From Agrococcus pavilionensis RW1 (GTDB lineage Bacteria; Actinomycetota; Actinomycetes; Actinomycetales; Microbacteriaceae): DNA of 64,000 nucleotides. The DNA is taken from assembly GCF_000400485.1 (NCBI RefSeq), contig NZ_ASHR01000030.1, positions 1 through 64,000 of the forward strand, read 5' to 3'. Positions within the stretch are counted from its first letter, which is position 1, and every line of letters begins with the position of its first letter. A program made the position numbers and the translations under genes. The notes beneath the pieces were generated by a model. That model searched no databases. It was not told the origin of the DNA and saw nothing but the letters and a program-made list of their open reading frames with translations. Of this stretch, positions 44,306 through 56,518 are shown one piece after another.

Positions 44306-44366
44306 TTGACATGCGCGCACGCCTCTTGCATGCTCGAACCTGAAACCTGAACCACCTGTCAGGTTT
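44306..44366 (+). promoter_or_regulatory. Promoter and operator of the 12-gene transport/catabolic operon
   Basis: TTGACA (44306-44311), 17 bases, then CATGCT (44329-44334) as a weak -10. Immediately downstream lie AACCTGA (44337-44343), AACCTGA (44344-44350) and the inverse TCAGGTT (44359-44365). The last two are the cores of a perfect AAACCTGA-N8-TCAGGTTT inverted repeat (44343-44366). This is a strong operator candidate, probably for the TetR-type regulator encoded within the operon. Confidence 0.6.
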
Positions 44367-44450
44367 GGAACCGTGAAGCCGCACGAGGGAGTGCTGTCTC
44401 GCCAGTCGAGCAGCGCCCTGACGGGGCTCGCACCGCTCGAAAGGCAACTC

Positions 44451-45662
44451 ATGCGCAGGACAACGAAGTTCGCCGGCGTGGGCGTCGCCCTCGCCGCGCT
44501 CGCGCTCACGGCGTGCGCGCCGACCGCGTCGACCACCTCGCCCTCCACCGCCGGCTCCGAGGGCGCGGAGGAGACCGTCGCCGTCAACGTGGGCATGATC
44601 ACCTCGATCACCGGCCCGCTCGCGGCGTACGGCGCCGCCTACCAGCAGGGCTTCGAGGCGGGCCTCGACTACGCGACCGACGGCACCGGCGAGATCGACG
44701 GCGTAGAGCTCACGATCGAGTGGGTCGACGACCAGGGCAACCCCGACACGGCCGTCACGCAGGCCAAGGACCTCATCGGCCAGGGCTTCCAGGTGCTCGG
44801 CGGTTCGGCCGCCTCGGGCGTCGCCCTCGCGGTCGCCGAGCAGGCGGCGCAGAACGACGTGCTCTTCCTCTCGGGCCCGGCCGCCGCCGACGCCATCACG
44901 GGCATCAACGAGCAGACGTTCCGCTCGGGCCGCCAGACGCTGCAGGACGTCGCGACTGCCGCGACCTTCCTCGACAGCGTCGAGGGCTCGAACATCGTCG
45001 TCTTCGCGCAGGACAACGCGTTCGGCCAGGGCAACGTCGCCTCGGTCGAGGCCGTGCTCGGCGCGGAGGGCGCGAACGTCACGCCCATCCTCGTCGCCGA
45101 GGACGCGACGGAGTTCACCCCATTCGCGCAGCAGATCTCGGCGGCCTCGCCCGACCTCGTCTTCGTGGCGTGGGCCGGCGCGACGACCGGTGCGATGTGG
45201 GAGGCGCTCGCGCAGCAGCAGGTGCTCGCCTCGACGACCGTCGTCACGGGCCTCGCCGACCGCGCCTCGTACCAGGCCTACGGCCCGGGCTCGGCCGACA
45301 TCCAGTTCCTCAACCACTACTTCCCGCAGGCGACCGACACCGAGGCGGCGCAGGCGATGGATGCGTTCCTCGAGGCCGAGGGCCAGGAGGCCGACCTCTT
45401 CACCGTCGACGGCTTCGTGGGCGCGCAGATGCTCGTGCACGCGATCGCCGAGGGCAAGGGCGACACCGCCGCGATGATCGAGGCGCTCGAGGGCTGGACC
45501 TTCGAGTCGGTCAAGGGCGAGCTCACCATCCGCGCCGAGGACCACGCGCTCATCCAGCCGATGTTCCAGGTGCGGCTCGTCGACGAGGCCGGCACGTGGG
45601 TGCCGGAGCTCATCGAGGTCGCCGACGCCGAGGCCGTCGCGCCGCCGGTCGCGGGCGAGTGA
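44451..45662 (+). CDS. HAAT-type ABC transporter substrate-binding lipoprotein
   Basis: 403-residue lipoprotein of the branched-chain amino acid (LivK) binding-protein class. The signal peptide ends in LTAC (lipidated Cys22), then a type I two-lobe binding fold (GMITSITGPLAAYG at the start). Binding specificity cannot be read by eye; the operon suggests a carboxylate or ester rather than leucine. The ATG is preceded by AAAGGCA; an upstream in-frame GTG at 44373 would put residues before the signal peptide. First gene of the operon. Confidence 0.9.
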   Translation: MRRTTKFAGVGVALAALALTACAPTASTTSPSTAGSEGAEETVAVNVGMITSITGPLAAYGAAYQQGFEAGLDYATDGTGEIDGVELTIEWVDDQGNPDTAVTQAKDLIGQGFQVLGGSAASGVALAVAEQAAQNDVLFLSGPAAADAITGINEQTFRSGRQTLQDVATAATFLDSVEGSNIVVFAQDNAFGQGNVASVEAVLGAEGANVTPILVAEDATEFTPFAQQISAASPDLVFVAWAGATTGAMWEALAQQQVLASTTVVTGLADRASYQAYGPGSADIQFLNHYFPQATDTEAAQAMDAFLEAEGQEADLFTVDGFVGAQMLVHAIAEGKGDTAAMIEALEGWTFESVKGELTIRAEDHALIQPMFQVRLVDEAGTWVPELIEVADAEAVAPPVAGE

Positions 45663-45675
45663 GGGTGATGCAGTG

Positions 45676-46431
45676 ATGGTCGACCGACCCGCGCTCCAGC
45701 TGGACGCCGTCGGCCTGCAGATCGGCGGCGCGCGCATCCTGCACGACGTCACGATGCAGGTCGGGACCGGCGAGATGGTCGGGGTCATCGGCCCCAACGG
45801 CGCTGGCAAGACCACGCTGTTCAACATCATCTCGGGCGTCATGATCCCCACGAGCGGCACCGTCCGCCTCGCGGGGGACGACGTCACCGGTCACAAGGTG
45901 CACCAGCGGGCGCGGGTCGGTCTCGGCCGCACGTTCCAGACCTCGAGCGTCTTCGCCGGCCTCACGGCGGGCGAGAACGTGCGCCTCGCGGCGCAGTCGA
46001 AGCTCGGGGGAGCGACGAGTCCCTGGAGGTTCCCCCGGCAGGGCGACGACGCGGCGCAGGTCGCGGACCGCTGCCTGCAGGAGGTCGGCCTCGCCCACCA
46101 CACCGACACGGCTGCGGGCGTCCTCTCGCACGGCGACAAGCGCAAGCTCGAGATCGCGATGCTCATCGCGACCGAGCCGGAGGTCGTGCTGCTCGACGAG
46201 CCCATGGCGGGCGTCGGCTCCGGCGACGTCGCGGGCCTCGTCGAGGTCATCCGGCGGCTCCACGCCTCTGGCCGCACCGTGCTCATGGTCGAGCACCACA
46301 TGGAGGTGCTGCTCGGCCTCGTCGACCGCGTCGCGGTCATGCACCACGGCGAGCTGCTCGCGATCGACACCCCCAAGGCCGTCATGGCCAATCCGCAAGT
46401 CCAGAAGGCCTACCTCGGGGAGACCGTGTGA
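45676..46431 (+). CDS. HAAT-type ABC transporter ATP-binding protein (LivG-like)
   Basis: 251-residue ATPase with Walker A GPNGAGKTT, signature LSHGDKRKLEIAM, Walker B VVLLDEPMAGVG and H-loop VEHHME. LivG-type features include the RTFQTSSVFAGLT block. It overlaps the second ATPase gene by 4 bases. The ATG is preferred to a GTG one codon earlier because of ribosome binding site spacing (GAGGGTG). Confidence 0.93.
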   Translation: MVDRPALQLDAVGLQIGGARILHDVTMQVGTGEMVGVIGPNGAGKTTLFNIISGVMIPTSGTVRLAGDDVTGHKVHQRARVGLGRTFQTSSVFAGLTAGENVRLAAQSKLGGATSPWRFPRQGDDAAQVADRCLQEVGLAHHTDTAAGVLSHGDKRKLEIAMLIATEPEVVLLDEPMAGVGSGDVAGLVEVIRRLHASGRTVLMVEHHMEVLLGLVDRVAVMHHGELLAIDTPKAVMANPQVQKAYLGETV

Positions 46432-47135
46432 CCGCCATCCTGACCGTCCGCGGCCTCGACGCGCGGATCGCCGGCCAGCAGGTCGTCGAGGGCGCCTCGT
46501 TCGAGGTCGCCGAGCACGGCGTCACCGCCCTCCTCGGCCGCAACGGCGTCGGCAAGTCGTCGAACATCAAGGCGCTGCTCGGCCTCTACGAGCGCTCGGG
46601 TGAGGTGACGTTCGCGGGCGAGCGCATCGACCGGCTCATGACGCACCGCATCGTGCAGCGCGGCATCGCCTACGTGCCCGAGGATCGCGAGGTCTTCGGC
46701 GGCCTCACGGTCGAGGAGAACCTGCGGCTCGCCGAGCGCGGCGGCGCCCCGAACCGCGGCATCGTCGCCGAGCTCTTCCCCGAGCTCATCCAGCGCGCCA
46801 AGCAGCAGGCCGGCACCCTCTCGGGCGGCCAGCAGCAGATGGTCTCGCTCTCGCGCGCGCTCATGAACGACAACCGGCTGCTGCTCGTCGACGAGCCGAC
46901 GAAGGGCCTCGCGCCCCTCATCGTCGGCACCGTCACGAAGGCCCTCGAGGCCGCGGCCGAGCGCACGCCCATGCTGCTCGTCGAGCAGAACCTGCAGGTC
47001 GTGCGCGCGCTCGCGCACTCCGTCATCGTCCTCTCCGGCGGCCGCGTGGTCCACACGGGCCCGGCCGCCGACTTCCTGGACTCCGACCTCGTGCACCGGC
47101 ACCTCGGCGTCTCGACCGACGAGGAGGCAGCGTGA
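46428..47135 (+). CDS. HAAT-type ABC transporter ATP-binding protein (LivF-like)
   Basis: 235-residue second ATPase of the importer, with Walker A GRNGVGKSS (Ser replaces the usual Thr pair), signature LSGGQQQMVSLSRAL, Walker B LLLVDEPTKGLAP, and the LivF hallmark YVPEDREVFGGLTVEENL. Start GTG overlaps livG; stop overlaps the permease start. The two ATPases and two permeases give a full importer. Confidence 0.93.
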   Translation: MTAILTVRGLDARIAGQQVVEGASFEVAEHGVTALLGRNGVGKSSNIKALLGLYERSGEVTFAGERIDRLMTHRIVQRGIAYVPEDREVFGGLTVEENLRLAERGGAPNRGIVAELFPELIQRAKQQAGTLSGGQQQMVSLSRALMNDNRLLLVDEPTKGLAPLIVGTVTKALEAAAERTPMLLVEQNLQVVRALAHSVIVLSGGRVVHTGPAADFLDSDLVHRHLGVSTDEEAA

Positions 47136-48010
47136 GCACCGTCCTGCTCCTGCTCATCACCGGCATCGGCCTCGGCGCCCTCTACTTCCTCGTCGCGAGC
47201 GGCCTCTCGCTCATCTACGGGCTCATGGGCGTGCTCAACTTCGCGCACGGCTCCTTCCTCACCCTCGCCGGCTTCCTCGGCTGGGAGGTGGGGCGGCGGA
47301 TCGGCGACGGCACCTGGGCGGGACTGCTCACGGGCATGCTCGTCGGCCTCGTCGTCGGCGCGGTCGTCGCGGCGCTCACCGAGCTCATCTTCATCCGGCC
47401 GCTCTACAACCGGCACATCGAGCAGGTGCTCGTCACCGTCGGCCTCGGCCTCGCCTCCGTCGCGCTCTTCGAGGGCATCTGGGGCACCGACCCCATCCAG
47501 ATCCGCCTGCCCGAGTGGCTCGGCGGCACGACGGACGTGCTCGGCGCCAACATCCCGAACGACCGCTGGCTGCTCATCGCCACCGCCGTCGTCGTGCTCG
47601 TGCTCATCGTGCTCTTCCTGCAGCGCACGAGCTACGGCCTCGTCATCCGCGCGGGCGTCGAGAACCGCACGATGGTCACCGCGCTCGGCATCGACGTGCG
47701 CCGCGCCTTCACGATCGTCTTCGCGATCGGCGGCGCCGCAGCCGGCCTCGGGGGCGTGCTCGCCTCGGTCTACTACGGCCAGGTCGGCGCGCACCAGGGC
47801 ACGAGCCTGCTGATCTACGCGTTCATCGTGACCGTCATCGGCGGCCTCGGCTCCCTCACGGGCGCGGCCATCGCATCCGTGCTCGTCGCCGTCATCCAGC
47901 AGTTCGCGAACTTCTACCTCGGCGGCACCGGCGACCTCGCCATCGTGCTCGCGCTCGCCGCGGTGCTGCTCGTCCGACCGACCGGCCTCATGGGCAAGGT
48001 CAAGCACTAG
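47132..48010 (+). CDS. HAAT-type ABC transporter permease (LivH-like)
   Basis: 292-residue permease with about eight membrane helices. LivH family stretches are GLSLIYGLMGVLNFAHGSF near the N-terminus and GLGSLTGAAIASVL near the C-terminus, with a coupling loop around ALGIDVRRAFTIVFAIG. GTG start overlaps the livF-like stop (GTGA). Confidence 0.92.
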   Translation: MSTVLLLLITGIGLGALYFLVASGLSLIYGLMGVLNFAHGSFLTLAGFLGWEVGRRIGDGTWAGLLTGMLVGLVVGAVVAALTELIFIRPLYNRHIEQVLVTVGLGLASVALFEGIWGTDPIQIRLPEWLGGTTDVLGANIPNDRWLLIATAVVVLVLIVLFLQRTSYGLVIRAGVENRTMVTALGIDVRRAFTIVFAIGGAAAGLGGVLASVYYGQVGAHQGTSLLIYAFIVTVIGGLGSLTGAAIASVLVAVIQQFANFYLGGTGDLAIVLALAAVLLVRPTGLMGKVKH

Positions 48011-48013
48011 GAG

Positions 48014-49129
48014 ATGAGCGTGCGCACCTTCTTCACCTCCGTCTGGGGCAAGCTCGTCGTCGGCGCCGTCATCGTCGGCGTCGCCGCGATGCTGCCGCTG
48101 CTCGCGATCGACATCCCCGGCATCCTCCCGGGACCGACCTACACGCCCGGCACCCTCACGGTGCTCGCGTACGCGATGCTCATCGCCGCGCTCGCCCTCA
48201 GCTACCACCTGATCTTCGGCGTCGCGGGCCTGCTCTCGTTCGGCCACGCGATGTTCTTCGCCGCCGGCGCCTACGGTCTCGGCATCATCCTCAAGCTGCT
48301 CGCGCCGAGCGGCATGCCCGCCGAGGCCGTCTTCCTCGTCGCGATCGTGCTGACCCTCGTCATCGCGCTCGTGCTCGGCAACCTCGTCGGCGCGCTCGCG
48401 CTGCGCGTCACCGGCATCTCGTTCGCGATGGTGACGCTCGCGGTCGCGCAGGCGATGAACGTCATGATCCGCCGCAACGTCGGCGGCCTCACGGGCGGCG
48501 AGGAGGGCGTGCGGCTGCCGGTCGACGTCGTGCCCGACGTGCTCGTCGGGGTCGTCAACACGCGCAACCTCTACTGGCTCGCGCTCGCGATCCTCGTCAT
48601 CGTCTACCTCGCGTGCGTGTGGATCGAGCGCTCGCGCCTCGGCCACGTCGTCGCGGCGGCGCGCGAGAACGAGCTGCGCGTGACGGTGCTGGGCCTTCGC
48701 CCCTACTTCGTGCGCCTCTTCCTCTTCGCGGGCGCCGCGGTGCTCGCCGCCGTCGCCGGCATCGGCTTCATGCTGCTGCAGTCGAGCGCGACGCCCCGCA
48801 TCTCGACGAGCGACTTCACGCTCACGCTGCTCGTCATCGTCGTGCTCGGCGGCGTCGGCTACCGCTGGGGCGCGATCGTCGGCGGCATCGTCTACACGCT
48901 GCTCGACCAGCGGCTCGCGGCGCTCGCCTCGGCCGAGTGGATCCGGGGGCTGCCCGACGTGCTGCGGATCCCGCTCTCGGAGCCGCTGTTCATCCTCGGC
49001 ATGCTCTTCGTGCTCGTCGTGATGTTCGCGCCCGGCGGCATCGTCGGGCTCTCGCACCGCGTGACGCAGCGGCGCGGCAGCAAGCGCGACGTCGCGGAGC
49101 CCAAGGCGCTCCAGGACATGGAAGCCTAG
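48014..49129 (+). CDS. HAAT-type ABC transporter permease (LivM-like)
   Basis: 371-residue second permease with about ten membrane helices. LivM hallmarks: LALSYHLIFGVAGLLSFGHAMFF is the family N-terminal block (seen here in two parts), and VTVLGLRPYFVRLFLFAGAA with GGVGYRWGAIVGG is the C-terminal block. The C-terminal tail is charged. It starts 3 bases after the LivH-like stop and is followed 4 bases on by the acyl-CoA synthetase gene. Confidence 0.92.
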   Translation: MSVRTFFTSVWGKLVVGAVIVGVAAMLPLLAIDIPGILPGPTYTPGTLTVLAYAMLIAALALSYHLIFGVAGLLSFGHAMFFAAGAYGLGIILKLLAPSGMPAEAVFLVAIVLTLVIALVLGNLVGALALRVTGISFAMVTLAVAQAMNVMIRRNVGGLTGGEEGVRLPVDVVPDVLVGVVNTRNLYWLALAILVIVYLACVWIERSRLGHVVAAARENELRVTVLGLRPYFVRLFLFAGAAVLAAVAGIGFMLLQSSATPRISTSDFTLTLLVIVVLGGVGYRWGAIVGGIVYTLLDQRLAALASAEWIRGLPDVLRIPLSEPLFILGMLFVLVVMFAPGGIVGLSHRVTQRRGSKRDVAEPKALQDMEA

Positions 49130-49133
49130 GACG

Positions 49134-50645
49134 ATGGCACCCGATGCGCTGACGCTCGGCCGCTGGACCACCGACCGCGCCGCGATCGACCCGGCCCGGC
49201 CGGCGATCGTCGACCGCGGCGTCGCGGTCTCCTACGGCGAGCTCGAGGCGCGCGCGACCGCGCTCGCGCACGCGCTCGGCGAGGCCGGGCACGGACGCGG
49301 CGCGCGCATCGCGACGGTGACGGGCTCGACCGCCGACCAGGTCGTGCTGCTCTTCGCGTGCGCGAAGGCCGGCGCGATGCTCGTGCCGCTCTCGTGGCGG
49401 CTCACGGCGGGCGAGCTCGCCGAGCAGCTGCGCATCGCCGACCCCTCGCTCCTGCTCGTCGAGGACGACCACCGGCCCGTCGCCGAGGCCGCGCTCGACC
49501 GCCTCGCCGGGCACCGCATCCCCACGACGGCCCTCGGCGCCGCAGGGATCGAGACGGCGGTGCCGGATGCGTCGGTGCACCTCGGGCACGGAGCCCCGGT
49601 CGACGACGACGGCCTCCTCATGCTCTTCACCTCCGGCACGACGAGCGCCCCGAAGGCGGTCGTGCTGAGCCACGCGAGCTGTGCGTGGAGCAACCTGTCG
49701 CTCTCGCGCGCGACGCCCATGACGCCCGACGACGTCGTGCTGCAGGTGCTGCCGCAGCACCACGTCGCGGGCTGGAACATCCAGCCGCTGCTCGCGTGGT
49801 GGGTCGGCGCGCGCGTCGTGCTCGAGCGCACCTTCGACGCGGGCCGCGCGCTCGCGCTCATCGAGCGGCACCGCGTGACCGCGACGATGGGTGTGCCGAC
49901 GACCTACCGCGCGCTCGTGCAGCACCCCGACTTCCTCGCCCGCGACCTCTCGAGCCTCACGACCGCGATCGTCGGCGGGGGCATGCTCGATCCGCGCGCG
50001 ACCGAGCTGCTGCGGCGGCAGGGCGTGCCGGTGCGGCAGGGCTACGGCCTCACCGAGGCGGCGCCGAACGTGTCGCTCGCGCGCGACGAGAGCGACGACG
50101 GCACCGCCGGGCGCCCCTACCCGCACGTCGACGTCGCGCTGCTCGTCGACGGCCGCGTGCAGACCGCGCCCGGGCGGGGCGAGCTGCTCGTGCGCGGGCC
50201 GGCGCTCTTCCAGGGCTACTTCCGCGACCCCGAGGCGACCGCCGAGGCGCGCTTCGGATCGTGGCTGCGCACGGGCGACCTCGTCGAGCGCGACGCGGCC
50301 GGCCGCATCCGCGTCGTCGACCGCATGAAGGACATCGTGCGCTCGGGCGCCGAGTCGATCGCGCCGATCGAGGTCGAGCTCGCGCTGCTCGAGCACCCCG
50401 CGGTCGCCGAGGCGGCGGTCGCGGGCGTGCCGAGCGAGCGCTGGGGCGAGGAGGTCGTCGCGTGGCTCGTGCTCGAGGGTGAGGCGACCGAGGCCGAGCT
50501 GCGTCGGCACCTCGACGGCCGCATCGCCGACTTCAAGCACCCGAAGCGCTTCGTGGTCGTCGACGCGATCCCGCGCACGAGCACGGGCAAGCCGCTCCGC
50601 CGCGCGCTCACCGCGTCGCTCGAGCAGCAGGGAGCGGCGTCGTGA
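49134..50645 (+). CDS. AMP-dependent acyl-CoA synthetase
   Basis: 503-residue ANL-superfamily ligase that would adenylate a carboxylic acid and transfer it to CoA. The P-loop is FTSGTTSAPKAV (from about residue 166), then QGYGLTEAAPN, the TGDLVERD motif with the conserved Asp, the hinge VVDRMKDIVRSGAE, and the C-terminal catalytic Lys region PRTSTGKPLRR. Acid specificity cannot be assigned; the operon points to acetoacetate, 3-hydroxybutyrate or a related acid. Overlaps the TetR gene (GTGA). Confidence 0.9.
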   Translation: MAPDALTLGRWTTDRAAIDPARPAIVDRGVAVSYGELEARATALAHALGEAGHGRGARIATVTGSTADQVVLLFACAKAGAMLVPLSWRLTAGELAEQLRIADPSLLLVEDDHRPVAEAALDRLAGHRIPTTALGAAGIETAVPDASVHLGHGAPVDDDGLLMLFTSGTTSAPKAVVLSHASCAWSNLSLSRATPMTPDDVVLQVLPQHHVAGWNIQPLLAWWVGARVVLERTFDAGRALALIERHRVTATMGVPTTYRALVQHPDFLARDLSSLTTAIVGGGMLDPRATELLRRQGVPVRQGYGLTEAAPNVSLARDESDDGTAGRPYPHVDVALLVDGRVQTAPGRGELLVRGPALFQGYFRDPEATAEARFGSWLRTGDLVERDAAGRIRVVDRMKDIVRSGAESIAPIEVELALLEHPAVAEAAVAGVPSERWGEEVVAWLVLEGEATEAELRRHLDGRIADFKHPKRFVVVDAIPRTSTGKPLRRALTASLEQQGAAS

Positions 50646-51307
50646 ACCAGCCGAGGACGAAGCGCGGCGAGCAGACGAAGGCGAAGCTGCTCGCGGCCGC
50701 AGAGGGCGTCTTCGCCGAGCAGGGCTACCAGGCGGCGTCGATCGCCCGCATCACCGAGCGCGCGAGCGTCGCCCAGGGCACGTTCTACCTCTACTTCGAG
50801 TCGAAGCTCGACCTCTTCGAGCAGCTCGTCGACGACCTCAACCGGCGCGTGCGGAAGGCGATGAGCGACGGCGCCGCGCGCGGCTCGAACCGCGCCGAGG
50901 CCGAGCGCGAGGGCTTCCGCGAGTTCTTCGCCTTCACCGCCGAGCACCCCGCGCTCTACCGCGTCGTGCGCGAGGCGGAGTTCGTCTCGCCCGGCGCGAT
51001 GCGCGCGCACTACGAGCGCATCGTCGAGGGCTACCGCGAGGGCCTCGAGCGCGCTCGCGCCGCCGGTGAGATCGGCGACGTCGACCCCGAGGTCGCGGCG
51101 TGGGCGCTCATGGGCGTCGGCGAGATGATCGGGATGCGCTACGTGCTGTGGCCGACGGGCGACGACGGCCCGTACGGCACCGGCGCGACGCCCGTGCCCG
51201 ACGATGTGTTCGACGAGATGGTGGCGTTCGTGCAGCGCGCGCTCGGCACCGCCCCGTCGGAGTTGACCGCTGCCGCTCCCGCGGCTCGAACCCAGGAGGA
51301 CTCATGA
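50642..51307 (+). CDS. TetR family transcriptional regulator
   Basis: 221-residue regulator with an N-terminal TetR helix-turn-helix (about residues 10-56; IARITERASVAQGTFYLYFESKLDLF) and a C-terminal ligand pocket, seemingly of the AcrR/FadR style. Embedded within the operon with 4-base overlaps on both sides, so it is made in step with the enzymes and most likely auto-represses the promoter at 44306. The inducer may be the acyl-CoA or the imported acid. Confidence 0.9.
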   Translation: MNQPRTKRGEQTKAKLLAAAEGVFAEQGYQAASIARITERASVAQGTFYLYFESKLDLFEQLVDDLNRRVRKAMSDGAARGSNRAEAEREGFREFFAFTAEHPALYRVVREAEFVSPGAMRAHYERIVEGYREGLERARAAGEIGDVDPEVAAWALMGVGEMIGMRYVLWPTGDDGPYGTGATPVPDDVFDEMVAFVQRALGTAPSELTAAAPAARTQEDS

Positions 51308-52050
51308 GCACGCTCTCCGGCCGCAGGGCCGTCATCACGGGCGGCGCCGCGGGCATCGGCGCCGCGATCGCCCGCTCGTTCGCCGCGGAGGGCGCGCACG
51401 TGGTCATCGCCGACCGCGACGCGGCCGCCGCCGCGGCGCTCGCGAGCGAGCTCGGCGGCGAGTCGTGGGAGGTCGACCTGCTCGACGTCGGCTCGCTCGA
51501 GTCGCTCTCGCTCGAGGCCGACATCCTCGTCAACAACGCGGGCATCCAGCGCGTCGCCCCGATCGAGAGCTACGAGCCCGAGATGTGGCGCCGCATCCAC
51601 ACCCTCATGCTCGAGGCGCCCTTCCTGCTCATCCGCGCGGCGCTTCCCGGCATGTACGAGCGGGGCTTCGGCCGCATCCTCAACCTCTCGAGCGTGCACG
51701 GCCTCCGCGCATCCGCCTTCAAGTCCGCCTACGTCGCCGCGAAGCACGGCCTCGAGGGGCTCTCGAAGGTCACGGCGCTCGAGGGCGCGCCGCACGGCGT
51801 CACCTCGAACTGCATCAACCCCGGCTACGTGCGCACCGCGCTCGTCGAGGCGCAGATCGCCGACCAGGCGAAGACGCACGGCATCCCCGAGTCCGACGTG
51901 CTCGAGCAGGTCATGCTCACCGAGGCGGCCGTCAAGCGGCTCGTCGAGCCCGAGGAGGTCGCCTCGCTCGCGACCTGGCTCGCCGGCCCGCACGCGGGCA
52001 TGGTCACGGGCACCTCGTACGTCATGGACGGCGGCTGGAGCGCCCGATGA
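51304..52050 (+). CDS. 3-hydroxybutyrate dehydrogenase (SDR family)
   Basis: 248-residue classical short-chain dehydrogenase oxidising (R)-3-hydroxybutyrate to acetoacetate with NAD. The nucleotide motif is TGGAAGIGAAIA, followed by NNAGIQ and the triad Ser130, Tyr143, Lys147. Hydroxybutyrate-dehydrogenase-specific stretches are NNAGIQRVAPIE, SSVHGLRASAFKSAYVAAKHG (in two parts) and the insertion with AKTHGIPESDVLEQVML before the C-terminus. Coupled by ATGA overlap to the TetR gene. Its product is the substrate of the CoA-transferase encoded downstream. Confidence 0.87.
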   Translation: MSTLSGRRAVITGGAAGIGAAIARSFAAEGAHVVIADRDAAAAAALASELGGESWEVDLLDVGSLESLSLEADILVNNAGIQRVAPIESYEPEMWRRIHTLMLEAPFLLIRAALPGMYERGFGRILNLSSVHGLRASAFKSAYVAAKHGLEGLSKVTALEGAPHGVTSNCINPGYVRTALVEAQIADQAKTHGIPESDVLEQVMLTEAAVKRLVEPEEVASLATWLAGPHAGMVTGTSYVMDGGWSAR

Positions 52051-52988
52051 CCACCGCGACCCCACCCACCTCGGCGGAGCAGCCGCTGCGCGTCGCCGTC
52101 GACGGCGGCGAGCTCGCCGCGACCGTGTGGCGGGCGGATGCGCCGGGCACGCCCGTCGTCGCGATCCACGGGATCACGGCGAACCACCGCTCGTTCTCGC
52201 CGCTCGCCGAGCGCCTGGGCGCCCCCGTGCTCGCCGTCGACCTGCGCGGCCGCGGCGGCTCGCGCGCGCTGCCCGCGCCGTTCAGCATGGTGCAGCACGC
52301 CGAGGACGTCGCCGCGGCGATGCGCGCCGCGGGCTTCGGGCGAGCGATCGTCGTCGGCCACTCGATGGGCGCCTACGTCGCGACCCGGCTCGCGAGCGCG
52401 CACCCCGAGCTCGTCGCCTCGCTCGTGCTCGTCGACGGCGGCCTGCCGCTGCGGCCCGCACCCGAGGGCTCCGACCTGAGCCCCGAGGACGTGCTCGGGC
52501 CGGCGATCGAGCGGCTGCGCATGACGTTCCCCGACACCGCCGCCTACCGTGACTTCTGGCGCCAGCACCCGGCCTTCGGGCCCTACTGGAGCCCGGCGAT
52601 CGAGGAGTACGTCGACTACGACCTCGTGCCCGACGCGCGGGAGGAGTCGGAGGGCTTCGCGCTGCGCCCCTCGGCGAACCCCGACGCGGTCGTCGCGAAC
52701 CTCGTCGAGCTCGACGGCCGCGGCGGCTACACCGAGGCGCTCGAGGCGCTCGAGCTGCCGATCGCGCTCCTGCGGAGCCCGCGCGGCCTGTTCGACGAGT
52801 CGCCGGGCCTCTACGATGACGAGTGGCTCGCGACATGGCGGTCGCGGCTGCCCGGACTCGAGGTCGACGACGTCGAGGACACCAATCACTACACGATCCT
52901 GATGGGCTCGGGCGTCGACGCGGTCGCGGCCGTCGTCGCGCGCCTGCAGGCAGCGGGGCAGGGATCCCGCACGGAAGGGGCACGCTGA
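52047..52988 (+). CDS. Alpha/beta hydrolase
   Basis: 313-residue alpha/beta hydrolase. Oxyanion region AIHGITANH, nucleophile elbow GHSMGA, and a late His in DTNHYTILMG; the acid is probably the Asp after RSPRGLFDE. No signal peptide, so it acts on imported substrate. Sitting between 3-hydroxybutyrate dehydrogenase and the CoA-transferase (overlaps on both sides), it probably releases hydroxybutyrate or a related acid from an ester. Exact substrate unknown. Confidence 0.85.
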   Translation: MTTATPPTSAEQPLRVAVDGGELAATVWRADAPGTPVVAIHGITANHRSFSPLAERLGAPVLAVDLRGRGGSRALPAPFSMVQHAEDVAAAMRAAGFGRAIVVGHSMGAYVATRLASAHPELVASLVLVDGGLPLRPAPEGSDLSPEDVLGPAIERLRMTFPDTAAYRDFWRQHPAFGPYWSPAIEEYVDYDLVPDAREESEGFALRPSANPDAVVANLVELDGRGGYTEALEALELPIALLRSPRGLFDESPGLYDDEWLATWRSRLPGLEVDDVEDTNHYTILMGSGVDAVAAVVARLQAAGQGSRTEGAR

Positions 52989-53758
52989 TGGCGATCGACA
53001 AGACCTACGGCTCGGCGGCGGAGGCCGTCGCCGACATCCAGGACGGGGCGACCCTCGCGGTCGGCGGCTTCGGCCTCTCCGGCAACCCGATGGCGCTCAT
53101 CCGCGCGATCGAGGAGCGGGGCGTCAAGCACCTCAAGGTCGTCTCGAACAACTGCGGCGTCGACGACTGGGGGCTCGGGCTCCTGCTCCGCAACGGCCAG
53201 ATCGACAAGATGACCTCGTCGTACGTCGGCGAGAACAAGGAGTTCGAGCGCCGCTACCTCACGGGCGAGCTCGAGCTCGAGCTCACGCCGCAGGGCACGC
53301 TCGCCGAGAAGCTCCGCGCGGGCGGCTCGGGCATCGCCGCGTTCTACACGCGCACGGGCGTCGGCACGCAGGTGCAGGAGGGCGGACTGCCGCAGCTGTA
53401 CAACCCCGACGGCACGGTCGCCAAGGCATCCGCCCCCAAGCCGACCGCGACGTTCGACGTCGACGGCACGCCTACGGAGTTCGTGCTCGAGGAGGCCATC
53501 ACGACCGACTTCTCGCTCGTGCACGCGCTGCGCGGCGACCGGCACGGCAACCTCGTCTTCAACAAGGCCGCCCGCCAGTTCTCGCCGCCCGCGGCGATGG
53601 CGGGTCGCATCTGCATCGCGCAGGTCGAGGAGCTCGTCGAGCCGGGCGAGATCGACCCGGATGCGGTGCACCTGCCGGGCGTGTTCGTGCACCGGATCGT
53701 CGAGGTCGGCACCGACATCGAGAAGCGCATCGAGCGACGCACGGTCCGAGAAGACTGA
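52988..53758 (+). CDS. scoA: Succinyl-CoA:3-ketoacid CoA-transferase subunit A
   Basis: 256-residue alpha subunit of the SCOT-type CoA-transferase that activates acetoacetate using succinyl-CoA. Family blocks: [16 protein letters not shown] (CoA-binding glycine loop), [36 protein letters not shown], and [10 protein letters not shown]. The ATG shares a base with the preceding stop (TGATG). The catalytic Glu is in subunit B. Confidence 0.94.
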
Positions 53759-53777
53759 GGGCGAGAGGAGACCAGCC

Positions 53778-54407
53778 ATGGCACTGACCCGCAACGAGAT
53801 GGCCGCGCGCGCAGCGAAGGAGCTCGAGGACGGCATGTACGTCAACCTCGGCATCGGGCTGCCGACGCTCGTGCCGAACTACGTGCCCGACGACGTGACC
53901 GTCGTGCTGCAGAGCGAGAACGGCATCCTGGGCGTCGGCCCGTACCCGACCGAGGACGCGGTCGACCCCGACCTCATCAACGCCGGCAAGGAGACGGTGA
54001 CGACGCTCCCGGGCACGTCGTTCTTCGACTCGGCGACGTCGTTCGCGATGATCCGCGGCGGCAAGATCGACGCCGCGATCCTCGGCGCGATGCAGGTGTC
54101 GGCCTCGGGCGACATCGCCAACTGGATGATCCCCGGCAAGATGGTCAAGGGTCCCGGCGGCGCGATGGACCTCGTGCACGGCGCCGCGAAGGTCATCGTG
54201 CTCATGGAGCACACCGCGAAGGACGGCTCGGCGAAGATCCTGCACGCGTGCTCGCTGCCGCTCACGGGCAAGGGCGTCGTGGACCGCATCATCACCGACC
54301 TCGCGGTGCTCGACGTGACGCCCGAGGGGCTGCGGCTCGTCGAGCTCGCGCCGGGCGTGACGATCGAGGAGCTGCGCGAGAAGACCGAGCCGGAGATCCT
54401 CGAGTGA
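53778..54407 (+). CDS. scoB: Succinyl-CoA:3-ketoacid CoA-transferase subunit B
   Basis: 209-residue beta subunit with the catalytic glutamate E47 in the signature SENGILGVG. Further family blocks are [15 protein letters not shown] and [15 protein letters not shown]. It starts 19 bases after scoA with a GAGAGGAG ribosome binding site, so the two subunits are made together. With the dehydrogenase this gives 3-hydroxybutyrate to acetoacetate to acetoacetyl-CoA; the thiolase must be elsewhere. Confidence 0.94.
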
Positions 54408-55456
54408 CGACGATCCTCGCGGGGATCGAGCAGTCGAGCATCCGCACCGAGCGGCTCGCCGCATCCGTGCTCCGCCGCGAGGTCGATGGTGCGGAGGGTC
54501 AGCGACCCGTCGTGCTCATCCACGGCAACGTGTCGTCGTCGCTGTTCTTCCAGCCGCTCATGCTCGCGCTGCCGCGGCCGTCGATCGCGATCGACCTGCG
54601 CGGCTACGGCGACAGCGAGACGCTGCCGGTCGATGCGACGCGGGGCCTGGGCGACTTCGCCGACGACGTCGCCTCGGTGATGGATGCGCTCGGCCTCGCC
54701 GACGCCCACCTGCTCGGCTGGTCGATGGGCGGCGGCGTCGTCATGCAGCTCATGCTCGACCGGCCCGACCTCATCCGCTCGGTGACGCTCATGGCGCCCG
54801 TGCCGCCGCACGGCTTCGGCACGCGGCTCGACGGGTCGCTCTGCACGCCGGATGCGGCGGGCACGGGCGGCGGGGGAGCGAACCCCGACTTCGTCGCGCG
54901 GCTCGCGGCGGGCGACGCGACCGACGAGGCGCCCACGAGCCCGCGGAGCGTCTTCCGCTCGAGCTACGTCGCACCGGGCTTCGCCGACGAGCACGAGGAC
55001 CTCTGGGTCGAGTCGATGCTCTCGACGAAGACGGGGCCCGACAACCAGCCGGGCGACGGTGTCGCGTCGGAGTCGTGGCCGGGCTTCGCGCCGGGCACGC
55101 GCGGCATCCTCAACACGATGTCGGCGGCGCACCTCGACCTCACCGGCATCGTCGCGATCGAGCGGAAGCCCGCGATCCTGTGGGTGCGGGGCGCGCACGA
55201 CGCGATCGTCTCGGACGAGTCGTTCTTCGACGTCAACACGCTCGGCAAGCACGGCGTCGTGCCGGGCTGGCCGGGCGAGGAGGCGGCGCCGCCGCAGCCG
55301 ATGATCGCGCAGACGCGGCGAGTGCTCGACGAGTACGCCGCCGCTGGCGGTGCCTACGAGGAGCTCGTGTTCGAGACGGCGGGCCACTCGCCGCACATCG
55401 AGGAGCCGGAGCGCTTCCGCGACGCCTTCCTGCGCCACATCGAGGCGAACGACTAG
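54404..55456 (+). CDS. Alpha/beta hydrolase
   Basis: 350-residue hydrolase, last gene of the operon. Oxyanion [13 protein letters not shown], nucleophile elbow GWSMGGGVV, acid in [13 protein letters not shown], and His in [14 protein letters not shown]. An unusually long cap region (about residues 140-240), rich in Gly and Ser, distinguishes it from the other hydrolase. No signal peptide. Its GTG overlaps scoB (GTGA). Like its sister enzyme it may act on hydroxybutyrate esters or oligomers. Confidence 0.84.
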
Positions 55457-55489
55457 CCCAATTCCCCGGCGAAGTCCAGGCAAGACGAA

Positions 55490-55520
55490 GGCCCCGCATC
55501 CGTCACTCGGATGCGGGGCC
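55490..55520. terminator. Bidirectional hairpin terminator
   Basis: GGCCCCGCATCCG-TCACT-CGGATGCGGGGCC, a perfect 13-base stem with a 5-base loop, lies between the convergent catabolic operon and the opuA operon. Confidence 0.9.
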
Positions 55521-55536
55521 TCGCGCGCTCGAGCGA

Positions 55537-56454
55537 CTACTCGGTCGCGGTGAGCGAGTCGACGTACTCCTGGTTCTCGCTGATCCAGGTCGCGACGACC
55601 TCGGGGTAGTCGCTCTGCGTCGCGTCGCTGTTGAACATCGCGTTCTCGAGCGAGAAGAGCAGCTCCGAGTCCATCTCGAACGCCTGCAGCCACGCGGTGA
55701 GCTGCGGGAAGTCCTCCTCGAAGCCCGTGCGGGCGATCGAGTGGATGCCCTCCGCGGCACCGAGCGTGCCCTCGGGGTCCTCGAGGTCGCGGATGGGGAA
55801 CTCGTCGTAGGCCCAGTGCGGGCGCCACAGCGTCACGACGATGTTCTCGCCGGCGTCGATCGCGCCGCTCAGCTCGGCGAGCATCGCGGGCGTCGACGAG
55901 GTCACGAACTCCATGCCCTCGAGGCCGTAGGTCGGGATGACCGAGTCCTGCGTCGCGCCCGTGAGGCCCGCGCCCGGCTCGATGCCGACGATGCGGTTGC
56001 CGAACGCGTCGGCGTTGTCGGCGAGCTCCTCGATCGAGGTGATCGGGGCATCCTCGTTGACCGCGAGGGTCAGCACGGCGTCGTCGTTCCACGAGCCGAG
56101 GTCGACGAGGTCGTCGCCGAACTCGGTCATGTAGTCGGCGTGCGTCATCGGCAGCCAGCCGTCGAGCGTGACGTCGTAGTCGCCGCCCGCGACGCCCGCG
56201 AAGACGGGGCCGGCGTCGGCGTACTCGAGCTCGACGTCGTAGCCCTGCTCCTCGAGGATCGCCTCCCACAGGTAGGAGACGGCCTCGCCCTCGGGCCAGC
56301 CGTTGAAGACGCCGATCGTCAGGTCGGTCTGGTCGCTCGTCGACGCGGCGTCGCCCTCGGGGGCCTCCGCCTCGTCGCCGCTCGACGAGCAGCCGGCCAG
56401 GGCCAGCGCTCCGACGGCAGCCACGGCCGTCGCGCGGATGAATCGCTTGTGCAT
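55537..56454 (-). CDS. opuAC: Glycine betaine ABC transporter substrate-binding lipoprotein
   Basis: 305-residue binding lipoprotein of the OpuAC/ProX class. Signal peptide with lipobox LALAGC (Cys22). Aromatic residues typical of the betaine cage occur in FNGWPEGEAVSYLWE, LDGWLPMTHADY and LWRPHWAYDEFP. The ATG is preceded by GAGGAAGGA; an upstream in-frame start is rejected because it places residues ahead of the signal peptide. Last gene of an ATPase-permease-binding protein operon for osmoprotectant uptake. Confidence 0.92.
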   Translation of the reverse strand: MHKRFIRATAVAAVGALALAGCSSSGDEAEAPEGDAASTSDQTDLTIGVFNGWPEGEAVSYLWEAILEEQGYDVELEYADAGPVFAGVAGGDYDVTLDGWLPMTHADYMTEFGDDLVDLGSWNDDAVLTLAVNEDAPITSIEELADNADAFGNRIVGIEPGAGLTGATQDSVIPTYGLEGMEFVTSSTPAMLAELSGAIDAGENIVVTLWRPHWAYDEFPIRDLEDPEGTLGAAEGIHSIARTGFEEDFPQLTAWLQAFEMDSELLFSLENAMFNSDATQSDYPEVVATWISENQEYVDSLTATE

Positions 56455-56518
56455 GCTGTGTCCTTCCTCGTTCCGTATCTTTCGTCCGTCGGCGGCCACC
56501 TGAGCGGCCGCCGAAGTC

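Follow-up and report, generated by a model that had tools for sequence, protein, structure and literature searches.

Twelve consecutive genes at positions 44451-55456 of a 64,000-nucleotide stretch of the Agrococcus pavilionensis RW1 genome (contig NZ_ASHR01000030.1; this whole stretch is called the window below) constitute, judging from comparison with related genomes, an operon-like unit that is conserved together with a palindrome of its own. This unit joins a HAAT-type ABC importer to an acyl-CoA synthetase (ACS), a TetR-family regulator, a 3-hydroxybutyrate dehydrogenase (BDH), two alpha/beta hydrolases (ABH1 and ABH2) and a two-subunit CoA-transferase (ScoAB). We lean, with modest confidence, towards the reading that this operon serves the TetR-repressed uptake and catabolism of 3-hydroxybutyrate (3HB) esters or oligomers, and that these are most probably short pieces of poly(3-hydroxybutyrate) (PHB) set free outside the cell. 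PHB occurs widely in nature as a storage polyester and is also sold as a biodegradable plastic.

The pathway could proceed as follows. The lipoprotein, which is the substrate-binding protein (SBP) of the importer, would bind a fragment and the importer would carry it into the cell, where ABH1, joined by ABH2 in some species, would hydrolyse the ester; (R)-3-hydroxybutyrate would then be oxidised by BDH, and the resulting acetoacetate would be turned into acetoacetyl-CoA by ScoAB or ACS. The last step, to acetyl-CoA, would fall to a thiolase, whose gene lies elsewhere in this genome but near the cluster in many relatives. TetR would occupy the palindrome downstream of the -35 box until released by an acyl-CoA or a 3HB-derived ligand. 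Within this scheme we infer the ligand of the importer, the substrate of ABH1, the role of ACS, and the binding and inducer of TetR. The features concerned are:

44306..44311, plus strand: TTGACA hexamer, probable -35 box
44344..44365, no strand assigned: 22-bp palindrome AACCTGAACCACCTGTCAGGTT, predicted and probable TetR operator, conserved with TetR
44451..45662, plus strand: SBP, HAAT-type substrate-binding lipoprotein (Peripla_BP_6)
45676..46431, plus strand: LivG/UrtD-like ATPase (by NCBIfam resemblance)
46428..47135, plus strand: LivF/UrtE-like ATPase (by NCBIfam resemblance)
47132..48010, plus strand: LivH/UrtB-like permease (by NCBIfam resemblance)
48014..49129, plus strand: LivM/UrtC-like permease (by Pfam and NCBIfam resemblance)
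49134..50645, plus strand: ACS, acyl-CoA synthetase (AMP-binding)
50642..51307, plus strand: TetR-family regulator, probable repressor of its own operon (by family and palindrome conservation)
51304..52050, plus strand: BDH, D-3-hydroxybutyrate dehydrogenase (TIGR01963)
52047..52988, plus strand: ABH1, alpha/beta hydrolase 1, core partner of the importer and proposed 3HB-oligomer or ester hydrolase
52988..53758, plus strand: ScoA, CoA-transferase subunit A (above the TIGR02429 cut-off)
53778..54407, plus strand: ScoB, 3-oxoacid CoA-transferase subunit B (above the TIGR02428 cut-off)
54404..55456, plus strand: ABH2, accessory alpha/beta hydrolase 2 (best NCBIfam match NF050089)
about 55489..55521, no strand assigned: strong hairpin, possible shared terminator (seen by folding only, missed by the terminator scan)

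All twelve genes lie on the plus strand, and six of their 11 junctions overlap by 4 bases and one by 1 base, the remaining gaps measuring 13, 3, 4 and 19 bases. The first-pass annotation of this DNA had described exactly such a co-directional series, and its gene order, coordinates and overlaps proved correct.

The unit recurs in related genomes. Among 297 genomes of the order searched with the SBP at a cut-off of 1e-40, 28 carry an orthologue, the source genome (2.88 Mb, 50 contigs) included, always one per genome and always at E < 1e-117. The 27 other loci were compared by tblastn, and neighbouring open reading frames were used only if a family match or tblastn confirmed them. Every one of these loci has all five importer genes (SBP, two ATPases, two permeases) together with ABH1. 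ACS and TetR occur in 22 of these loci, although three of the stretches compared (L054, L055, L057) are short, and BDH in 21, in one case about 3 kb from ABH1 (L042) and in two on the opposite strand (L053, L056). ScoA with ScoB is present in 14/27, thiolase likewise in 14/27 and ABH2 in 9/27. A separate scan of genome contigs with an ABH1 alignment, of which the best 80 loci were kept and in which the closest named relatives belong to Agrococcus, recovered BDH in 59, the importer (SBP plus PermH) in 45, ABH2 in 41, and ScoA with ScoB as well as thiolase in 37 each. Among these best 80 loci, BDH accompanies the importer in 36 of 45 and also occurs in 22 of the 34 loci from which both SBP and PermH are missing. 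Eleven of the latter 34 span less than 15 kb, so that some absences reflect contig ends. The proposal that the two hydrolases together free the acid has to be refined in this light, as they are not equal: ABH1 belongs to the core, ABH2 only to a third of the SBP loci. Synteny of the SBP with bdh-scoAB, the check that had been suggested, extends to 21/27 loci for BDH and 14/27 for ScoAB, against 27/27 for ABH1. That the importer is always paired with ABH1 suggests that the imported compound must be hydrolysed, and the presence of BDH and ScoAB indicates that one of the products would be 3HB.

The palindrome ties the regulator to this cluster. Its 22-bp consensus, AACCTGAATCACCTTTCAGGTT, lies ahead of the SBP gene with at most five mismatches in all 23 loci that have TetR (the window and 22 others), while the best match in the five loci without ACS and TetR has 10-12 mismatches, as in shuffled sequence. 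None of 5,600 shuffled sequences came below six mismatches, a comparison in which the consensus had been drawn by eye from the loci before counting and the shuffles preserved base composition only. Counts over whole genomes, which are independent of the shuffles, gave the same picture: with one mismatch allowed, the palindrome occurs in exactly the 22 genomes with TetR and in none of the five others, and a reversed control pattern occurs in none of the 27. In the source genome the sole site with fewer than three mismatches to the consensus is 44345-44364. Nineteen of the 22 relatives have a single palindrome, and G181, G270 and G289 have an extra one. Taken together, these alignments and counts indicate that one palindrome is tied to the TetR of this operon. 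The cluster turns up repeatedly within Actinomycetota, accompanied by the conserved palindrome, and the arrangement is therefore more than chance.

A probable promoter element accompanies the palindrome. A TTGACN hexamer stands 28-32 bases upstream of the palindrome in 21 of the 23 loci (the exceptions are L032 and L033), a spacing at which the palindrome would overlie the transcription start, as expected of a repressor site; in the window, 32 bases separate the two elements, and the start given by the first-pass annotation, 44306, is the first base of TTGACA. A generic promoter scan found no sigma-70-like match at the locus, and a generic terminator scan returned two weak intragenic sites against 1.6 +/- 1.2 in shuffles, i.e., nothing above the shuffles. 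The hairpin at about 55489-55521 has 13-14 continuous pairs (z = -3.1 for the 80-base stretch). It lacks a T-run and faces a convergent gene, so that a single terminator of the operon at this position is only plausible. Of the earlier picture of one promoter/operator leading to one terminator, the single TTGACA and single palindrome thus stand, and the terminator and the co-transcription of the twelve genes are predictions. The convergent gene, at 55537-56499 on the minus strand, encodes a glycine-betaine-type binding protein with an OpuAC domain and shares the hairpin.

In G181 and G270 the second palindrome lies 58-59 bases upstream of an intact permease gene of the major facilitator superfamily (MFS), that of G270 matching Sugar_tr/MFS_1 and that of G181 being 77% identical to it. 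The extra site of G289 lies 61 bases before an internally truncated MFS permease gene (L172:8395-8781). At 61% identity, relatives of the permease are found between ABH1 and BDH in L042, L119 and L124; another, at 46%, adjoins BDH in L112. The MFS permease is hence grouped with BDH and the importer with ABH1, which may reflect separate entry of monomer and oligomer.

A further link leads to polyhydroxyalkanoate (PHA) depolymerases, which were sought by tblastn with the gene of L129 and then re-queried, a procedure that may miss other types. The two locus sets (27 SBP loci and the best 80 ABH1 loci) contain 107 loci, of which 106 are distinct, L049 and L073 being the same locus, and a gene of the PHA-depolymerase family was found near 10 of the 106. 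All nine genes scanned (L042, L084, L095, L102, L105, L119, L124, L129, L137) pass the cut-off of NF050058, the extracellular type 1 short-chain PHA depolymerase; L092 has the tenth, which shares 95% identity with the gene of L105. In six loci the depolymerase gene is divergent from the SBP gene, namely in the Cellulosimicrobium-like L092, L102 and L105, in L119 and L124 (Promicromonospora) and in L042. It follows ABH1 directly in L084, L129 and L137 and is farther off in L095 (about 6.5 kb from ABH1, with no obvious signal peptide by eye); the genome of L137 has the importer elsewhere, divergent from ScoAB. All six divergent loci carry a second palindrome on the depolymerase side, which is weaker (position weight matrix score 14.8-22.9 against a training minimum of 24.3). 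A scan of all 107 loci at a score of 14 found one more locus with two separate palindromes, L082, where copies at 2542 and 2617 lie between ScoB and the SBP gene and BDH-ScoA-ScoB lies upstream of the importer.

Such neighbouring depolymerases suggest that in some lineages the system is fed by PHB fragments. One can go further and picture a dedicated ABC importer for 3HB oligomers, with one TetR acting through the palindrome consensus to link a secreted PHB depolymerase, import, oligomer hydrolysis inside the cell and ketone-body catabolism. This would amount to a conserved actinobacterial regulon, whose depolymerase-free members, for example Agrococcus, would live on the fragments released by their neighbours; we put this broader proposal forward tentatively, as a possibility that falls somewhat short of an even chance. 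The competing idea that the importer carries free 3HB or acetoacetate, with ABH1 and ABH2 as thioesterases or housekeeping esterases, appears unlikely to us. BDH and ScoAB would act directly on the monomer, and the source genome contains no recognised extracellular depolymerase, but the hydrolase beside the importer in 27/27 loci and the grouping of the clustered MFS permease, rather than the importer, with BDH both speak against it.

The route after hydrolysis can be assigned from family scores. BDH scores 311.4 bits with TIGR01963 (cut-off 307.05) and 275.5 with NF009093 (cut-off 258), and its best PDB matches are 3-hydroxybutyrate dehydrogenases, while the adjacent subunits ScoA and ScoB reach 234.5 bits with TIGR02429 (cut-off 128.5) and 332.4 with TIGR02428 (cut-off 243.55), respectively, and are closest to SCOT-type enzymes. 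The conversion of 3HB to acetoacetyl-CoA by Bdh and ScoAB, as originally proposed, is therefore firm at the level of family membership. The 3-oxoadipate pathway (PcaIJ), a candidate for ScoAB, was rejected on account of this kinship with SCOT and because the source genome has no match to the intradiol ring-cleavage dioxygenase (PF00775). Four thiolases above cut-off are encoded elsewhere in the genome. Turnover of the cell's own PHB was likewise rejected as the genome gives no PhaC_N match; with no PHA synthase found, the 3HB would come from outside.

For the remaining proteins, namely the importer subunits, ACS, TetR and the two hydrolases, only broader families give a match. None of the 25 NCBIfam families listed for ACS is matched above its curated cut-off. 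The model of ABH1 is confident (pLDDT 92), and S106 and H281, which fit the nucleophile and histidine of the alpha/beta hydrolase fold, are invariant in an alignment of 23 sequences. ABH2 has the intracellular short-chain-length PHA depolymerase family NF050089 as its best NCBIfam match, at 99 bits, and ABH1 obtains 40 bits with the same family, whose cut-off is 300. In a plasmid collection, three records contain ABH1, and the other operon genes are missing from the two examined.

That the transporter is a HAAT ABC importer follows from a Peripla_BP_6 binding protein, two ATPases and two Liv/Urt-type permeases within one operon, where Pfam classes the SBP and one permease, and NCBIfam resemblance the second permease and the ATPases. 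The best NCBIfam names for these proteins are Liv and Urt, and one might accordingly suspect a standard importer of branched-chain amino acids or urea lying by chance ahead of a ketone-body operon. We consider this highly improbable, given that every score stays below its curated cut-off (with the LivK/LivJ family NF011933 the SBP obtains 56.9 bits against 477, and all five subunits fall short of the UrtABCDE models) and that the orthologue group is single-copy, syntenic with ABH1 and shares the palindrome; both amino acid and urea import were rejected on these cut-offs. The nearest solved relative of the SBP is RPA4397 of R. palustris (3n0x, 3nnd), at 28% identity and 210 bits, against 54 bits for LivJ, and Foldseek likewise places RPA4397 first (TM-score 0.75), followed by aromatic-acid SBPs, with LivJ farther away. 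By sequence and predicted structure, the SBP is thus nearer to RPA4397 and binders of compounds other than amino acids than to LivJ. As regards the ligand of RPA4397, the string '4397' is absent from the main text of the R. palustris SBP screen (PMC3223731).

Several observations weigh against uptake of 3HB esters or oligomers. ScoAB is missing in 13/27 and BDH in 6/27 SBP loci while importer and ABH1 persist (three of the six are short stretches), and ACS is more constant than ScoAB. The SBP orthologue is absent at 1e-40 from 16 of 18 genomes picked from the 34 importer-less ABH1 loci, so that ABH1-BDH can evidently do without the importer; in one SBP-less genome, that of L107, a more distant HAAT importer adjoins BDH and ABH1. 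Foldseek assigns ABH1 a generic alpha/beta hydrolase fold, and the PhaZ of B. thuringiensis ranks only 41st. The source genome contains no Esterase_PHB (PF10503) and no NF050058 match, and depolymerases are not significantly associated with the SBP, either overall (8/28 carriers versus 47/269, p = 0.12) or above cut-off (4/28 versus 22/269, p = 0.22). The ten depolymerase loci are, moreover, not independent, as close relatives account for five of them (three Cellulosimicrobium-like, two Promicromonospora).

The losses of BDH and ScoAB, the constancy of ACS, the occurrence of ABH1-BDH without the importer and the context of a Rhodococcus SBP relative (the one such plasmid record, 41% identity, in a different gene context) make an ester of another acid a serious rival. 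According to it, the importer would carry a different ester or conjugate, for instance of a branched-chain or aromatic acid, which ABH1 splits and ACS activates, with BDH and ScoAB acting on a downstream product or forming a separately recruited ketone-body module. Indeed, ABH1, ACS and TetR recur no less regularly than BDH and more regularly than ScoAB. Neither BDH nor ScoAB is present in L034, L043 and L048, which retain the importer, ACS, TetR and ABH1, and the structural neighbours of the SBP include aromatic-acid binders. Set against this, BDH also occurs where regulator and gene arrangement differ (L053, L056, L112), and genes of the PHA-depolymerase family are associated with the locus in several ways, in six cases with a palindrome copy. 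We rate the rival as fairly unlikely and retain the uptake of 3HB esters or oligomers. It is essentially what the first-pass annotation had guessed with its hydroxybutyrate-containing ester, oligomer or conjugate; the guess agrees with the comparative evidence from ABH1, BDH, depolymerase and MFS permease and is the best-supported reading, albeit a partly supported one in which the ligand is what we deduce from gene context.

Some variants of the locus deserve mention. In L053 (9681-11732) and L112 (11027-12922), which lack TetR and ACS, a large regulator with a GAF-like region, presumably PucR-like, adjoins ABH1, with BDH beyond it, i.e., the regulator has been swapped. An IclR-type gene lies between ABH1 and ScoAB-thiolase in twelve loci of Microbacterium or likely relatives (L040, L041, L045, L046, L090, L100, L104, L114, L121, L122, L132, L135), which suggests a second switch for the ScoAB-thiolase half. 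Two Actinophytocola loci encode a secreted-looking hydrolase of 414-416 aa between ABH1 and ABH2 (L107:10853-12094, L133:10790-12037) that gave no Pfam match at 1e-10 (L107), no NCBIfam match (both) and only weak lipase matches in the PDB. This protein may be an extracellular esterase, so far uncharacterised, that supplies the pathway. The record titles of L104, L105 and L097 (Stenotrophomonas, Sphaerisporangium and Myxococcales, respectively) fit their sequences poorly, as L104 has the Microbacterium-type arrangement, the L105 depolymerase closely matches that of Cellulosimicrobium L092, as given above, and the ABH1 of L097 is, by eye, near that of L038. These may be mislabelled or contaminated assemblies, or cases of transfer.

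A search of the open-access literature by titles and abstract openings, with subscription papers outside its scope, found neither a bacterial 3HB-oligomer importer nor this operon. The earlier remark that no described system has exactly this set is in line with that result, with the qualification that the locus is widespread and conserved rather than a one-off. Depolymerase, 3HB dehydrogenase and CoA-transferase are described in passages of PMC13373117, and secreted depolymerases, intracellular oligomer hydrolases, 3HB dehydrogenase and CoA-transferase in passages of PMC7830162; the passages covered in the two papers contain no 3HB-oligomer importer. For this missing step of fragment uptake, the locus provides specific candidates: an importer, a hydrolase, and a regulator with a defined predicted operator. 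It also points to possible 'scavenger' species, which would live on fragments but produce no depolymerase themselves.

Compared with known systems, the importer shares its five-part ABC architecture and Peripla_BP_6 binding protein with LivKHMGF and UrtABCDE, but scores far below their cut-offs and is accompanied by a hydrolase in every SBP locus and by a 3HB dehydrogenase in most. RPA4397 and the aromatic-acid HAAT SBPs are its nearest solved relatives, yet distant ones at the identity given above. Extracellular short-chain PHA depolymerases (NF050058, TIGR01840) were not found in the source genome and accompany about a tenth of the distinct loci, six of them with a palindrome copy. In the mobilisation of PHB and 3HB, as outlined in the passages of PMC7830162, PhaZ or an oligomer hydrolase (PhaY) is followed by 3HB dehydrogenase, ScoAB and thiolase. 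The present operon differs from this scheme in that no PHA synthase was found, the substrate would be imported and both hydrolases stay below the NF050089 cut-off, whereas the pathway logic past hydrolysis is the same and ABH2 resembles NF050089 best.

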